Positions 27,836-52,236 of a stretch of DNA of 64,000 nt are shown here, one piece after another (the first letter of the stretch is position 1; each line of letters begins with the position of its first letter). The stretch is taken from positions 1 through 64,000 of the forward strand of contig NZ_PSTQ01000002.1 in NCBI RefSeq assembly GCF_002931075.1, read 5' to 3'. The notes under the pieces are model-generated. The model worked only from the letters and a program-made list of their open reading frames with translations, was not told the DNA's origin and did not search any database. Made by a program: the position numbers and the translations under genes. This DNA is from Pseudoclavibacter sp. AY1F1 (GTDB taxonomy: Bacteria; Actinomycetota; Actinomycetes; Actinomycetales; Microbacteriaceae).

Positions 27836-28264
27836 GGCTTCCGCTCCCTGCTTGTGCCGGGGCCGCGTCGTTGTGATGGCGCCGACGTTCTGATGGACCC
27901 CGTCAGATTAGCGGTGTCATCTGGCTGATTCGTGAAGTGCCTCGTGAGTCGCCTGGAGTTCACTCCGGGGACCCCTGGGCACCGACGGGGTCGATTCGCC
28001 ATTTTTAGGCCGAATCACTGCCTTCCCTATGTGTGCAACTGATCAAATTGGTGCGGACCAAGTTATCGTTGGATCCTCATTTTGACCTTGCGACGCTGTT
28101 GGACGGGCTCATGGGGGCATCATGTCGGCGGTCGCCTCGCGTGTCGAGTCCGCGCGGCACGCCCGCAGAGCGGCCGGAGTGCTCCAGGTCGGTCGAGGTG
28201 CGCTCATTGCGCACATCCTGACCGATCGGTTGAAGTCTGACCGTTCGGTCAATAGACTCTCGGG
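27836..28264. other. 429-bp intergenic region before the TetR gene
   Basis: The left half is relatively AT-rich (28000-28085), which suggests a promoter, but I cannot define one. An open frame at 28122-28268 is listed separately. The right end carries the TetR operators. Confidence 0.5.
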
Positions 28265-28268
28265 GTGA
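28122..28268 (+). CDS. Possible 48-codon small ORF overlapping the TetR start
   Basis: ATG at 28122 follows a GGGGG run, and the frame reads MSAVASRVESARHARRAAG and onwards to a TGA that overlaps the TetR GTG by 4 nt, the layout of translational coupling. Against it, the frame runs through both TetR operators and the -10 element, and random open frames of this length are common at this GC content. No family recognised. I include it only because of the overlap. Confidence 0.2.
   Translation: MSAVASRVESARHARRAAGVLQVGRGALIAHILTDRLKSDRSVNRLSG
28219..28264 (+). promoter_or_regulatory. Twin TetR operators and leaderless promoter
   Basis: Two dyads of one type, TGACCGATCGGTTG (28219-28232) and TGACCGTTCGGTCA (28238-28251), have centres 19 bp apart, about two helical turns. 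TAGACT (28253-28258) follows and lies 6 nt before the GTG at 28265. A bound TetR dimer would block this promoter, so the gene should be autorepressed. Confidence 0.75.
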
Positions 28269-28876
28269 CCGAGCAGCAGCCCCCATCGCAGAGCCCTGAC
28301 GCCGACCCGCCGCAGGGCCAGCAGCCCCGTTCCGCGCGGACGCACCCGACCGATCTCCTCAAGGAGGCGGCGCTCGTCGAGTTCGCCGCGCACGGCTACG
28401 AGGGTGCCTCCCTGCAGGAGATCGCGAGCAAGGCCGGCTACACGAAGGCGAACCTGCTCTACCACTTCGGCTCGAAGCAGGGCCTCTTCGAGCAGGCCGT
28501 GCTCGAAGCCCTCGGTGCGTTCGAGGAACTCGTCGACTCGCTGCAGCGCCTCGACATCGGCGCCGAGGACGAACGACTCGTCGGGCCGTTCGTCGACTTC
28601 CTCCTCAAGCACCGCCTCGCCGTGCACATGTTCGTGAACCACCGCAGCACCGGAGCCGGCGAGTTCATCGCGACAAGAGTCGACTCCATCATCGAGCGGC
28701 TTGTTGCGGCGCTGTCCGACGACGAACCCGACCGTGCGCTTCGCATCGCCATCGGGCTCGCCGGTGTCACCTACTGCCTCGCCAACGAGAGCATCCCTGG
28801 CGAGGCCCGCACGCAAGAGCCGACACGCGACGAACTCGTCGCCGCGCTCACCTTCATCTCGGCCACGCGCCGGTAG
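28265..28876 (+). CDS. TetR-family transcriptional repressor
   Basis: The 203-residue protein has a flexible Pro/Gln-rich first 25 residues, then a TetR DNA-binding domain at about 28-75 (LLKEAALVEFAAHGYEGASLQEIASKAGYTKANLLYHFGSK). The rest is a helical ligand-binding domain. Starts at GTG 28265, probably leaderless. It lies 22 nt upstream of the MMPL gene, in one operon with the MMPL and YhgE-like genes, and most likely represses all three in response to an exported compound. The ligand is unknown. Confidence 0.92.
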   Translation: MTEQQPPSQSPDADPPQGQQPRSARTHPTDLLKEAALVEFAAHGYEGASLQEIASKAGYTKANLLYHFGSKQGLFEQAVLEALGAFEELVDSLQRLDIGAEDERLVGPFVDFLLKHRLAVHMFVNHRSTGAGEFIATRVDSIIERLVAALSDDEPDRALRIAIGLAGVTYCLANESIPGEARTQEPTRDELVAALTFISATRR

Positions 28877-28898: not shown

Positions 28899-31856
28899 AT
28901 GGCCCTTCTTCTCTTCCGAATCGCCCGAGGCTCGTACCGCCACCCGTGGCGTGTGCTCTCCGCGTGGATCCTCCTGCTGGCCGTCGCGCTCGGCGTCGGC
29001 GTGGCCGCAGGCGGTGCACTCAAGGAGTCGTTCGCGATTCCGGGCACCCAGTCGCAGGCGGCGCTCGACCGCCTTGGGGAAGTGTTCCCCGAAGCGGCAG
29101 GCGCAAGCGCGAGCGTCGTCGTCGTCACCCCGGCCGGGGAGTCCGTCGAAGACGAGCCGTACAAGGGCGCGATCGAGGACGCGGCCGAGCAGCTCGGCGG
29201 ACTCGACGGCGTCAGCCAGGCGCTGTCACCCTTCTCGGAGTACGCGACTGATGCCGTGTCCGCCGACGCCGAGGCTGGCATCATCCGCGTGCAGTTCGAC
29301 GGCACGAGCGAGGACATCAGCGAGGCAGTGATCGCAGAGGTCACCGAGATCGGAACGTCGCTTGAAACCGCAGGTCTGCAGGTCGGCTTCGACGGGCAGA
29401 TCTTCCAGAACCTCGAGTATGGGCTGACGCCGACCGAGATCGTCGGCGTCGTCTTCGCGGCCATCGTGCTGCTTGTGACCTTCGGTTCGGTGCTCGCCGC
29501 CGGCCTTCCGCTCGCCTCCGCCATCGTGGGGGTCGGTGTGACGATGGGCGGCATCCTCTTCGCCGCGAAGTTCGTGGTCGTCTCGAGCGCGACACCGCTG
29601 CTCGCGGTCATGATCGGCCTCGCGGTCGGCATCGACTACGCGCTCTTCGTTGTCTCACGCCACCGCACGCAGCTCGCGAACGGGATGGACCCGGAGGAGT
29701 CGACAGCGACCGCCGTCGGCACGGCGGGCAACGCCGTCGTCTTCGCCGGCGTGACCGTCATGATCGCCCTCCTGGGCCTCATGATCGTCGGGATCCCGTT
29801 CCTCAGCGTCATGGGTGTCGCGGCAGCCGGCGCCGTGTTCGCCGCCATGGCCGCCGTCATCACGCTCATCCCAGCGCTCCTCGGCTTCGCGGGTGAGCGG
29901 ATGCGCCCCAAGGTCGGGTCGCGCGCGTTCCGCCGCGAGACGGGCGCCAACGCGAAGCCCACGATGGGCAGGAGATGGGTGCGGCTCGTCATGAAGGCGC
30001 CGCTGGCGTTCGCGCTTGCCGTCGTGGCCATCCTCGGCACGCTTGCCCTCCCCGCGCTCGACCTCAAGCTCGCCCTGCCCTCCGGTGCCTCCGAGCCGGA
30101 GGACAGCGTTGCGCACGTCGGCTACGACCTCGTCTCCGAGCACTTCGGACCGGGTGCCAACGGGCCCCTCATCGTCATGGTCGACATAACGCAGGGCGAC
30201 AACGAGTCGCTCCTCGACGATCTGCAGCTCATCGCCGACCGCGTCGCCGAGGTCGACGGCGTCGAGACCGTCGGCGACCCGTTGCCCAACCTGACCGTTG
30301 ACTCCGCGATCATCCAGGTGGTGCCCTCGACGGGGCCGGACGACGACGAGACGCTTCGGGTGGTCGGCGAGATCCGCAACCTCGGCGATGAGCTTGAGCT
30401 CGAGACCGGCATGAAGACCTCGGTGACGGGCGCGACGGCCATCGCGCTCGACATCTCCGACCGTCTCAACCAGGCGCTGCTGCCGTTCGCCGCCGTGGTC
30501 GTCGGGCTCAGCTTCTTCCTGCTCATGATGGTGTTCCGCTCGATCCTCGTCCCGCTCAAGGCGGCGCTGAGCTTCCTGCTGAGCGTGTTCGCGGCCTTCG
30601 GCGTCGTCGTCGCGATCTTCCAGTGGGGGTGGTTCGCCGAAGCACTGCACGTCGTGCCCGGCCCGATCATCAGCTTCATGCCCATCCTGCTCATGGCCAT
30701 CATCTTCGGGTTGGCCATGGACTACGAGGTCTTCCTCGTCTCCGGAATGCGCGAGGCGTACGTGCGAAGCGGGAACGCCAGGGAGGCGGTCGAGACCGGC
30801 TTCGCAAACGGCGCGCGCGTGGTCACCGCGGCCGCGCTCATCATGTTCTTCGTCTTCGCCGCGTTTGTGCCAGAGGGGGCTGGCGTCATCAAGGCCATCG
30901 CCCTCGGGCTCGCGGCCGGCATCTTCTTCGACGCCTTCCTCGTGCGCATGACCCTGGTGCCCGCCGTCATGGCGATGCTCGGCAAGCGGGCCTGGGCCTT
31001 GCCTGCCTGGCTCGACCGGATCCTGCCCGACCTCGACGTCGAGGGGGAGCACCTCCGGCACTACCGGCAGAACGCCGAGTGGCTGCTCGACCAGCCCGAC
31101 GGCATCGCGATGGACGCGCTTGTCGCCGGTGCCGAATCGACGACGACGCGCCCGGTCACCGGCGGCATCGAACGCGGCGGTGTGCTGCTCGTCGAAGGCC
31201 AGCTCGCCGAACGGCGGCTGCTCGCGGCGACCCTCGCCGGTCGCATCGCCCCCGTGAGCGGGCACGCCCACGCGCACGGGCACCTCACGCCCGGAGACGA
31301 GGGCGCGCTCATGCGTCGCGTCGCCGTCGTAGATGCCTCGTCCATCGATGCCAGGTCGGCGGAACTCACCGTGGGCGCGCTCCTCGAGGAGCGGCTCCGC
31401 CTCGGCCGCGGAGTCGCGGGGGGAGCAGTGCCAGCTGCGCTCATCGAGCAGGCGGTCGCCGAGGTCTCTGCCGCCGTTGCCAGGCTGCGCGACGGATCAC
31501 CGCGTGTGCAAGCAGACACGAGCCTCGGTGACCTCCGGCCAGCATCTCGAGGTGTCGCGCTGGCACGCATCGCCCTGGCGGAAGCACCAGAGGTCCTGAT
31601 CCTCGACCTCGGCCCCGGAGCCGAGGCAGAGGCGGCCATCCGCCTCGCCGCGTCCCTCCTTTCGGAGACGAGCGCACTCGCTGCGCCTGAAACGACCATC
31701 GTCCTCGGGATTCCCGGAGGACTCGACCCCGCCGCCATCGTGGGCGAGGTGCGACGCCCCGCCGGCCGCATCCGACTCGATGCCCCACCGGTCGCCTCGG
31801 CCGACGCAGAATCCACGCACACTGCATCCAGCACGCACAAGGGAGCACTCGCATGA
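28899..31856 (+). CDS. MMPL/RND-family transporter with degenerate ABC-ATPase-like C-terminal domain
   Basis: ATG at 28899 begins MALLLFRIARGSYRHPWRVL. Residues 1 to about 720 are a standard MMPL (RND) transporter of twelve helices with two extracytoplasmic loops; GLAVGIDYALF and FGLAMDYEVFLVSGMRE are the conserved intramembrane motifs. Residues 750-945 resemble an ABC nucleotide-binding domain in order: a GGIERGGVLLVEGQLAERRL segment in place of Walker A (GxxGxGK missing), ELTVGALLEERLRL, a signature-like stretch SLGDLRPASRGVALARIALA, then EVLILDLGPGAEAEA in place of LLLLDEPTSGLD. All catalytic residues (Lys, Gln-loop, Glu) appear lost. The stop overlaps the next gene by 4 nt. Substrate unknown. 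Confidence 0.85.
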   Translation: MALLLFRIARGSYRHPWRVLSAWILLLAVALGVGVAAGGALKESFAIPGTQSQAALDRLGEVFPEAAGASASVVVVTPAGESVEDEPYKGAIEDAAEQLGGLDGVSQALSPFSEYATDAVSADAEAGIIRVQFDGTSEDISEAVIAEVTEIGTSLETAGLQVGFDGQIFQNLEYGLTPTEIVGVVFAAIVLLVTFGSVLAAGLPLASAIVGVGVTMGGILFAAKFVVVSSATPLLAVMIGLAVGIDYALFVVSRHRTQLANGMDPEESTATAVGTAGNAVVFAGVTVMIALLGLMIVGIPFLSVMGVAAAGAVFAAMAAVITLIPALLGFAGERMRPKVGSRAFRRETGANAKPTMGRRWVRLVMKAPLAFALAVVAILGTLALPALDLKLALPSGASEPEDSVAHVGYDLVSEHFGPGANGPLIVMVDITQGDNESLLDDLQLIADRVAEVDGVETVGDPLPNLTVDSAIIQVVPSTGPDDDETLRVVGEIRNLGDELELETGMKTSVTGATAIALDISDRLNQALLPFAAVVVGLSFFLLMMVFRSILVPLKAALSFLLSVFAAFGVVVAIFQWGWFAEALHVVPGPIISFMPILLMAIIFGLAMDYEVFLVSGMREAYVRSGNAREAVETGFANGARVVTAAALIMFFVFAAFVPEGAGVIKAIALGLAAGIFFDAFLVRMTLVPAVMAMLGKRAWALPAWLDRILPDLDVEGEHLRHYRQNAEWLLDQPDGIAMDALVAGAESTTTRPVTGGIERGGVLLVEGQLAERRLLAATLAGRIAPVSGHAHAHGHLTPGDEGALMRRVAVVDASSIDARSAELTVGALLEERLRLGRGVAGGAVPAALIEQAVAEVSAAVARLRDGSPRVQADTSLGDLRPASRGVALARIALAEAPEVLILDLGPGAEAEAAIRLAASLLSETSALAAPETTIVLGIPGGLDPAAIVGEVRRPAGRIRLDAPPVASADAESTHTASSTHKGALA

Positions 31857-49998: not shown

Positions 49999-50485
49999 CA
50001 CGCTTCTCGCATCGGGTGGGCTTCTTGTGGCAAACGGCCCCTTTGACGCCCTCGATGTCATCTCCCTCATCTGCCTCGGCCTTGGCGCGCTCCTCTCGCT
50101 CGCCGCGGGTGTCGGCCTCATGCGGTTCTCCGACGTGCTCATGCGCATGCACGCGCAGACGAAGCCGCAGATCGCCGGCCTCATGTTCCTGCTCATCGGC
50201 CTCGCCGTGCAGCAGACGCACCTGCCGACGATCCTCTTCCTCATCCCGATCATATTCTTCCAGATGCTCACCACGCCCGCCGGGGCGACGATGCTCGCGC
50301 GAGCTGGCTACCGGAGCAGGCAGTTCGACAACGTGCCGCTCTACGTCGACGAGCTTGCGGCCGCGGTCGAGAGCGCGCAGCGCCGCACCGATGACGAGCT
50401 GGCGCGGGCACACGCGGTTCGGACCGGTCAGCCGGAACGCGAGCCGGCGCCCGAGCACGAGGGCCTGGGGCACGGCGAGAAGTAG
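49985..50485 (+). CDS. mrpG: Na+/H+ antiporter subunit G
   Basis: The 166-residue protein starts at GTG 49985 and has three helices. [30 protein letters not shown] is the MrpG motif. The C-terminal 55 residues form a charged cytoplasmic tail that most family members lack. It completes the mrpACDEFG operon; the next gene, ilvD, has its own promoter and no clear terminator separates them. Confidence 0.92.
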
Positions 50486-50522
50486 CGTGTCACAGCGGCG
50501 CGGGCAGAGCTTCTCCGCGGCG

Positions 50523-50535
50523 TAGAATGGCGGGC
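50523..50535 (+). promoter_or_regulatory. -10 element for leaderless ilvD
   Basis: TAGAAT (50523-50528) is 7 nt upstream of ATG 50536. The alternative ATG at 50527 lies within the hexamer and would not be transcribed from this promoter. Confidence 0.6.
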
Positions 50536-52236
50536 ATGCCTGAGCCAGAAATCGACATCAAGCCACGCAGTCGGGTCGTCACCGACGGCATCGAAGCCAC
50601 CACCTCGCGCGGCATGCTTCGCGCTGTCGGTATGGGTGACGATGACTGGGACAAGCCGCAGATCGGCATCGCGTCCTCGTGGAACGAGATCACCCCATGC
50701 AACCTCTCCCTCAATCGCCTCGCGCAGGGCGCCAAGGAGGGCGTGCACTCTGGCGGTGGCTACCCGCTGCAGTTCGGCACCGTCTCCGTCTCTGACGGCA
50801 TCTCCATGGGCCACGAGGGCATGCACTTCTCGCTCGTCTCGCGTGAGGTCATCGCCGACTCCGTCGAGACCGTTGTCATGGCCGAGCGCCTCGACGGTAC
50901 CGTGCTGCTCGCCGGATGTGACAAGTCGATCCCCGGCATGCTCATGGCATCCGCGCGACTCGACCTCTCGAGCGTCTTCCTCTACGCGGGCTCGATCGCT
51001 CCGGGTTGGGTGAAGCTCTCGGACGGCACCGAGAAGGACATCACGATCATCGACTCATTCGAGGCAGTCGGTGCCACGAAGGCCGGCAAGATGTCCGAGT
51101 CCGACCTCAAGCGCATCGAGTGCGCGTTCGCGCCAGGTGAGGGCGCCTGCGGCGGCATGTACACGGCCAACACGATGGCCTCCGTCGCCGAGGCGCTCGG
51201 CCTCAGCCTGCCAGGCTCGGCCGCTCCCGCATCGGCCGACCGCCGCCGCGACATGTACGCCCACCGCTCGGGTGAGGCAGTGGTCAACCTGCTCCGCCAG
51301 GGCATCACGACGGGCGACATCCTCACGAAGGAAGCCTTCGAGAACGCCATCGCGCTTGCCATGGCGCTCGGCGGATCGACCAACGTCGTGCTCCACCTCC
51401 TCGCGATCGCTCGCGAGGCGCAGGTCGATGTCACCCTGCACGACTTCAACCGCATCGGCGACAAGGTTCCCCACATCGCGGACATGAAGCCGTTCGGCAA
51501 GTACGTCATGAATGACGTCGACCGCCACGGCGGCATCCCCGTCGTCATGAAGGCGCTCCTCGACGAGGGCCTCATGCACGGCGACGCGCTCACCGTGACG
51601 GGCAAGACGCTCGCCGAGAACCTCCGCGACCTCAACCCGGACCCGGTCGACGGCGACGTCGTGCACACGGTCAACAACCCCATCCACGCGACGGGCGGCA
51701 TCACGGTGCTGCACGGCTCGCTCGCCCCAGAAGGAGCCGTCGTGAAGACGGCAGGCTTCGACGCCGACGTCTTCGAGGGCCCAGCCCGCGTGTTCGAGCG
51801 CGAGCGCGGCGCGATGGACGCCCTCACCAACGGCGAGATCGAAGCTGGCGACGTCATCGTCATCCGCTACGAGGGCCCGAAGGGCGGACCGGGCATGCGC
51901 GAGATGCTCGCCATCACGGCGGCCATCAAGGGCGCGGGGCTCGGCAAGGATGTACTACTCTTGACGGACGGACGATTCTCAGGCGGCACAACCGGCCTGT
52001 GCATCGGCCACATTGCACCGGAAGCGGTCGACCAAGGTCCCATCGCTTTCGTCCGCAGTGGAGATCTGATTCGGGTCGACATCGCGGCTCGCTCGATCGA
52101 CCTACTCGTCGACGAAGCTGAGCTCGCCTCCCGCCGAGAAGGCTGGGAACCACTCCCTCCGAAGTTCACGCGCGGCGTGCTTGCGAAATACTCGAAGCTC
52201 GTCCGCAGCGCGTCCGAGGGGGCGACCACGGGCTAG
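50536..52236 (+). CDS. ilvD: Dihydroxy-acid dehydratase
   Basis: The second ATG gives 566 residues starting [13 protein letters not shown]. IlvD dehydrates 2,3-dihydroxy-isovalerate and -methylvalerate to the 2-keto acids. Three cysteines expected to bind the iron-sulfur cluster are C55 in EITPCN, C128 in GCDKSIPG and C205 in [13 protein letters not shown]. The C-terminal half has [12 protein letters not shown] and [11 protein letters not shown], both conserved in the IlvD/EDD family. It starts the branched-chain amino acid cluster. A gap of 81 nt to ilvB contains a small GGGGCTCGGCCCC hairpin. Confidence 0.95.

Follow-up and report, generated by a model that had tools for sequence, protein, structure and literature searches.

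An ABC ATPase-type domain fused to the C-terminus of an MMPL transporter encoded next to YhgE/Pip in Pseudoclavibacter

Results

Gene order and local signals

The window (the whole stretch of DNA that was analysed: 64,000 nucleotides, positions 1 to 64,000 of contig NZ_PSTQ01000002.1 of Pseudoclavibacter sp. AY1F1) carries on its + strand a run of three genes, for a TetR-family regulator, an MMPL protein that ends in a domain resembling the nucleotide-binding domain (NBD) of ABC proteins, and a YhgE/Pip protein; these form a putative operon with the TetR gene first (Table 1). Of the 100 loci L056–L155, which were chosen as relatives, 78 have a TetR-like gene immediately upstream in the same orientation. 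The inverted repeat just upstream of the window TetR gene, with 12-nt arms that are 92% complementary, is a candidate operator. The YhgE/Pip start and the MMPL stop share 4 nt (ATGA); a start-like [AG]TGA overlapping the MMPL stop was present in 72 of 76 named loci, and a loose purine-rich pattern in 54 of the 76, both as raw counts uncorrected for chance. At 31833–31853 of the window the putative AAGGGAG-like ribosome-binding site for YhgE coincides with codons for the conserved C-terminal residues of the fusion protein (KGAL and similar); because of this overlap, the conserved tail is probably a translation signal.

Table 1. Features of the TetR–MMPL–YhgE/Pip run, in positions of the window.
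Feature	Position	Strand	Basis or remark
Candidate TetR operator, inverted repeat TGACCGATCGGT-N9-ACCGTTCGGTCA	28219..28251		Repeat search; function inferred
TetR-family regulator	28265..28876	+	PF00440, E 5.4e-14
MMPL transporter with C-terminal ABC NBD-like domain	28899..31856	+	985 aa plus stop
MMPL/RND core, residues 1–708	28899..31022	+	PF03176, E 2.1e-85
Linker LPDLDVEGE..., residues 709–732	31023..31094	+	Alignments; usual end of related MMPL proteins
ABC NBD-like pseudo-ATPase domain, residues 733–962	31095..31784	+	Profile, predicted fold, motif alignment
Former Walker A, GQLAERRLL, residues 767–775	31197..31223	+	Alignment
Former signature helix and Walker B, residues 874–906	31518..31616	+	Asp kept, Leu for catalytic Glu
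AAGGGAG, putative ribosome-binding site of YhgE gene, inside MMPL tail	31839..31845	+	Sequence; function inferred
YhgE/Pip family ABC-2-type membrane protein, 740 aa	31853..34075	+	TIGR03061, PF12698

The MMPL core and the YhgE/Pip protein

A Pfam search of the 985-aa protein returned MMPL as the sole match, with PF03176 found in both halves (two stretches). The core contains Asp246-Tyr247 and Asp608-Tyr609, and all 148 fused ORFs, a count that includes near-copies, retain both pairs; Asp-Tyr pairs of this kind are the proton relay of RND proteins, and because both are kept throughout, the MMPL half looks proton-driven. With the whole 985-aa protein as query, 272 of 299 family genomes gave a match at E≤1e-100, the C-terminal domain not being covered in all of these.

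The following gene had been assigned to the YhgE/Pip type in an earlier reading of the window (hereafter, the sequence-only reading), and the profile searches agree with this. The N-terminal model TIGR03061 scored 97.6 bits in the genome reading and 93.7 bits in hmmscan (cut-off 96.15), PF12698 (ABC2_membrane_3) scored 34.7 bits, which is over its cut-off, and the C-terminal model TIGR03062 scored 69.1 bits against a cut-off of 102.2. The predicted structure had a pLDDT of 77. Foldseek found ABCG2, Wzm and ABCA folds over about 200–225 columns, all weak and none at E≤0.001; the top four ranks were held by coiled-coil proteins, which come first because of the long helical repeats of YhgE, with an ABC type-2 transporter domain in fifth place and ABCG2 in tenth. 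To our knowledge the function of YhgE/Pip proteins is only poorly defined. The Pip family is said to have homologues in the ABC-2 superfamily (PMC3924187).

The C-terminal domain has the fold of an ABC ATPase

Single-sequence searching of residues 724–985 gave no match in Pfam, NCBIfam or PDB, and PF00005 did not match the window domain, which hence lies below the curated cut-off. Taken alone these nulls would have dismissed the domain wrongly, and profiles were therefore needed. The relatives of the domain confirmed by search numbered 187, of which the best 80 were kept, and the C-terminal profile was built from an alignment of 56 relatives. The genera named in the records of the relatives, such as Pseudoclavibacter and Gulosibacter, are Microbacteriaceae; a few records give no more than Actinomycetota, Micrococcales or actinobacterium. 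Against PDB this profile matched 200 distinct sequences at E≤1 (best 9.6e-6); the best 60 of the 200 were all ABC proteins, among them many P-glycoprotein near-copies matched in the second half only, and EcfA was collinear with profile positions 27–237. In a column-shuffle control, for which 10485 non-MMPL ORFs of the loci analysed were searched, 20 shuffled copies gave 0 matches at E≤0.01 as against 50 for the real profile; 11 canonical ABC ATPases were present, and 6 of them are among these 50. In many short MMPL ORFs of the class the match was confined to the first 30–60 profile positions, that is, the linker. PF00005 was matched by 9 of the 56 relatives at E≤1 (best 1.8e-4), and over its cut-off by the three P-loop-intact fusions examined (E 1e-9, 6e-13 and 3e-16).

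AlphaFold2 predicted the domain (230 residues) with a pLDDT of 90 and a pTM of 0.86, the last 20 residues being of low confidence. Foldseek then gave 995 matches in PDB at E≤0.001 (best E 1.2e-11), and by title 46 of the best 50 of the 995 were ABC ATPases or transporters (including FtsE, MalK and CbiO titles, which we take to be ABC families); the titles of the other four (7ekm, 7ekl, 2it1 and 4u02) were uninformative. The neighbours are the CbiO, FtsE and MlaF ATPases, with TM-scores of about 0.5–0.67 for the best rows (shorter measure). AlphaFold2 and Foldseek together thus give the window domain the NBD fold of an ABC ATPase, and the C-terminal domain of the window MMPL protein is confirmed by fold and collinear homology as an ABC ATPase-type domain. 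The proposal of the sequence-only reading that residues about 750–945 follow the order of an ABC ATPase was in this way borne out by the profile, by the shuffle control and by the structure prediction that it had called for.

Catalytic motifs of the window domain

Also correct was its observation that the Walker A lysine, the signature glycines and the catalytic glutamate are absent. The Walker A column (residues 767–774) reads GQL-AERRL, with R772 in the lysine column and GxxxxGK[ST] gone; in the lineage of the window the glycine loop itself has been lost. The signature region reads LRPASRGVALARIAL, with no LSGGQ. In the Walker B segment (VLILD) Asp 903 is kept and L904 occupies the place of the catalytic Glu, and no H-switch His was found in residues 932–942. 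From these residues we infer that the window domain would not use ATP.

An intact ATPase gene had been reported as missing, and this holds within the window, where the NBD profile matched no other ORF. Inspection by eye of the window ORFs of ≥150 aa likewise found no ABC ATPase, with three loose Walker A matches; the ORF at 50395–52233 is alone among the three in having SGG as well as the loose Walker A, and is by eye not an ABC ATPase.

Conservation and variants of the fusion

The NBD profile matched inside the MMPL frame in 98 of the 100 loci (absent in L058 and L059), and in 98 of the 100 the gene directly after MMPL is YhgE, in the same orientation; in the two loci without it, L136 reaches the contig end and in L146 the MMPL frame continues through the YhgE stretch. 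The 148 fused ORFs (near-copies included) divide into 126 long and 22 compact ones. The P-loop is lost in 118 of the long ORFs and kept in 8, these 8 belonging to f24 and f34, two families of the class other than the window's, with P-loops such as GPPGTGKT and GPSGSGKT and a Walker B DD. Among the compact ORFs the P-loop is lost in 17, GR is present in 2 and GK in 3 (L074 and L258 from the window's family, L214 from f46). The compact form (L056, L060, L074, L212–L215 and others) is without the helical subdomain and the signature helix, and some compact fusions keep a P-loop (GEHRTGKS in L074, GPPHSGKT in L214). When unique sequences were counted, the 102 long fused domains of the window's family and its relatives had a P-loop in 0, a Glu in the catalytic place in 0, and the Walker B Asp in 88. 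SGG was found in 0 of 120 unique fused domains, a set from which the sorting of sequences excludes the P-loop-intact long ones.

Between five close members of the genus, mean dN/dS came to 0.140 for the domain (residues 716–950); the MMPL core gave 0.078, the first part of YhgE 0.097 and the tail 0.285. With dN/dS at 0.14 the domain is maintained under purifying selection; decay is rejected by this value, and the word "decayed", which the sequence-only reading had applied to the domain, was misleading.

Stand-alone partners of YhgE

We surveyed YhgE in 148 genomes of the class; of 56 matches, the 40 over the NCBIfam cut-off were counted and the 16 below it left out. A stand-alone NBD-like gene lay directly upstream of YhgE in 28 of the 40 loci, a fused MMPL–NBD gene in 7 (L061 among them), and neither was found by HMM in 5 (L237, L239, L242, L250 and L254), although L242 shows an ABC-like start by eye. 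The stand-alone NBD–YhgE loci contained no MMPL match, so NBD–YhgE is a unit of its own. Thirty-five stand-alone domains were compared, the 28 upstream of YhgE plus seven loci picked as profile matches (a biased sample): Walker A has GK[ST] in 2, GR[ST] in 25, GR followed by another residue in 1, and is lost in 7; SGG is present in 0 of 35, and a Glu in the catalytic place in 0 of the 33 that are covered there (two of the 35 being uncovered). When three stand-alone members were run against NCBIfam, none of the best 25 models for each reached its cut-off. The claim that YhgE is elsewhere paired with an ABC ATPase therefore stood as to the pairing and failed as to the partner, which is no ordinary ATPase.

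Since the stand-alone partners lack LSGGQ and the catalytic Glu and mostly have Arg for the Walker A Lys, the catalytic loss began before the fusion or independently of it; by its motif state the actinobacterial YhgE partner is an atypical ABC-like family, with the window case its eroded, fused end. Much of the catalytic loss is, judged by these motifs, shared by the whole family rather than brought about by the fusion. Capture of a YhgE-linked ABC-type domain by an MMPL gene, which the sequence-only reading had suggested, is well supported by the stand-alone and fused arrangements, both found in related genomes as it had asked, and by the existence of P-loop-intact fusions.

In the window genome the second-best match of the profile was a 269-aa ABC-like protein (E 6.6e-16) encoded directly upstream of another YhgE gene. 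This genome has two more YhgE genes, L206 (G000:C13:183000-196000), whose stand-alone NBD-like partner has GAGGRGRT, and L250 (G000:C5:16700-25700), which has a TetR gene beside it and where no NBD-like gene was found; since L250 has none upstream, YhgE does not always need an NBD-like gene. Six YhgE-linked NBD-like genes (L234, L235, L238, L243, L244 and L249) make up a second group, which is more diverged; they form one clade (100/99) and have His or no P-loop residue at the position of the Walker A lysine.

In a tree of the NBDs, whose bootstrap had not converged and whose compact rows occupy less than half of the alignment columns, the long fused rows fell in one clade (98/85; 20 of 21, with L075 apart), and the compact and P-loop-intact fused rows made up another (97/93; 27 of 29 rows); the 8 canonical ABC rows split off with full support. 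No support joins the two fused clades, and the stand-alone rows need 3 changes, of which starred branches force at least 1. A single origin of the fusion was considered and is not shown by this tree, the two fused clades being without a supported join. Going by the motifs, the class may hold a gradation whose stages are a stand-alone partner, a fusion with an intact P-loop and a fusion with a pseudo-NBD.

Discussion

The explanation that we favour, and hold to be moderately probable, is that the domain is a pseudo-NBD, the former partner of YhgE, which docks the MMPL protein on YhgE without ATP hydrolysis within one TetR-controlled complex moving a hydrophobic envelope compound. On this view the ABC-type protein that was once the partner of YhgE/Pip would have become an in-frame C-terminal extension of an MMPL transporter; the pseudo-NBD would still dock on YhgE from the cytoplasmic side, in the way in which an NBD sits on an ABC-2 transmembrane domain, and would no longer hydrolyse ATP. 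Docking would hold the proton-driven MMPL protein and YhgE in one complex, which would draw its energy from the proton gradient, would be under TetR control, and may move a lipid or other hydrophobic envelope compound. It is plausible that the domain serves as a structural coupling domain, a connector of two transport machines. Against docking stand the weak fold matches of YhgE, the presence in L250 of a YhgE without an NBD, and the greater variation of the domain relative to the MMPL core. The helical subdomain and signature helix are the part that usually meets the coupling helix in ABC transporters, and since the compact fused domains have lost both, the docking surface may differ. As to the substrate, a study of Saccharopolyspora hirsuta reports that cholesterol raises YhgE gene F1721_04135 3.82-fold and MMPL gene F1721_04140 3.33-fold, among 28 genes (PMC9782250); the two tags look consecutive. 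This induction hints at a hydrophobic inducer or substrate.

More tentatively, the complex could be an ABC-type translocator run on protons, in which YhgE has swapped its ATPase for an MMPL pump and the dead NBD acts as a mechanical coupler. It is rather unlikely that the domain is instead a regulatory sensor, which would gate the MMPL protein on binding, but not hydrolysing, a nucleotide or some other ligand, YhgE being merely a co-regulated neighbour. Retention of the Walker B Asp in 88 of the 102 unique long domains despite loss of the P-loop would suit a sensor, and the Walker A Arg variants of the stand-alone relatives could bind nucleotide weakly; however, the lineage of the window has lost the glycine loop itself, and the stand-alone homologues pair with YhgE with no MMPL match nearby, which points to YhgE as the partner of the domain.

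That the domain is an active, atypical ATPase with a divergent P-loop, a real NBD for YhgE, we consider improbable: its predicted fold is intact, and two other families have long fusions that retain GxxxxGK[ST] and the Walker B DD, but a P-loop or catalytic Glu is found in none of the 102 unique long domains and SGG in none of the 120. We give as little weight to a functionless vestige on its way out, with which the higher dN/dS of the domain than of the MMPL core and the large losses in the compact form would agree; purifying selection, the high-confidence fold and the NBD profile match in 98 of 100 relatives all argue against it. A chance resemblance arising from Ala/Leu-rich, high-GC coding, suggested by the empty single-sequence searches of the window domain, is rejected by the column shuffles and runs against the profile, the fold and the P-loop-intact relatives, so that we dismiss it.

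By convention, ABC transporters and RND/MMPL pumps belong to different energy classes. A conserved fusion in which the ATPase motifs are gone and the proton-relay residues are kept is a natural test of whether an NBD can act purely as a coupler, and it suggests for YhgE/Pip proteins a partner and a possible energy source; actinobacterial YhgE, for its part, is in many cases accompanied by an atypical ABC-like family of its own. In the available, largely non-subscription literature on YhgE/Pip and MMPL/RND proteins, no description of an MMPL–NBD fusion was found.

The MmpL/HAE2 transporters of the MmpL3 and ActII-3 type (NF052608, TIGR00833) resemble the window protein in the MMPL core, in both Asp-Tyr pairs and in the end of the core, whereas the window protein falls far below the curated cut-offs of both models; we know of no NBD-like domain at the end of MmpL3. 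The closest homologues of the domain outside fusions are the stand-alone YhgE-linked ABC-like proteins of actinobacteria, which occupy the same spot upstream of YhgE and like the window domain lack LSGGQ and the Glu; they differ in being separate genes, with a mostly recognisable GxxxxGR[ST] loop and no adjoining MMPL gene. TmrAB-like ABC transporters share with the window domain an NBD-type domain without catalytic residues, but there one NBD site is degenerate and a competent site remains, whereas the profile found no other NBD-like ORF in the window. A precedent for cooperation between MMPL and ABC proteins is MmpL7–DrrABC, in which an MMPL protein works with an ABC-type exporter: according to a 2024 study, MmpL7 lacks the proton-relay residues and is likely a scaffold with DrrABC in PDIM export (PMC11539658). 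In that system Walker A and B are intact in the ABC partner, MmpL7 is said to lack the relay, and the genes are separate (PMC11539658); the window protein presents the reverse arrangement, and in fused form.
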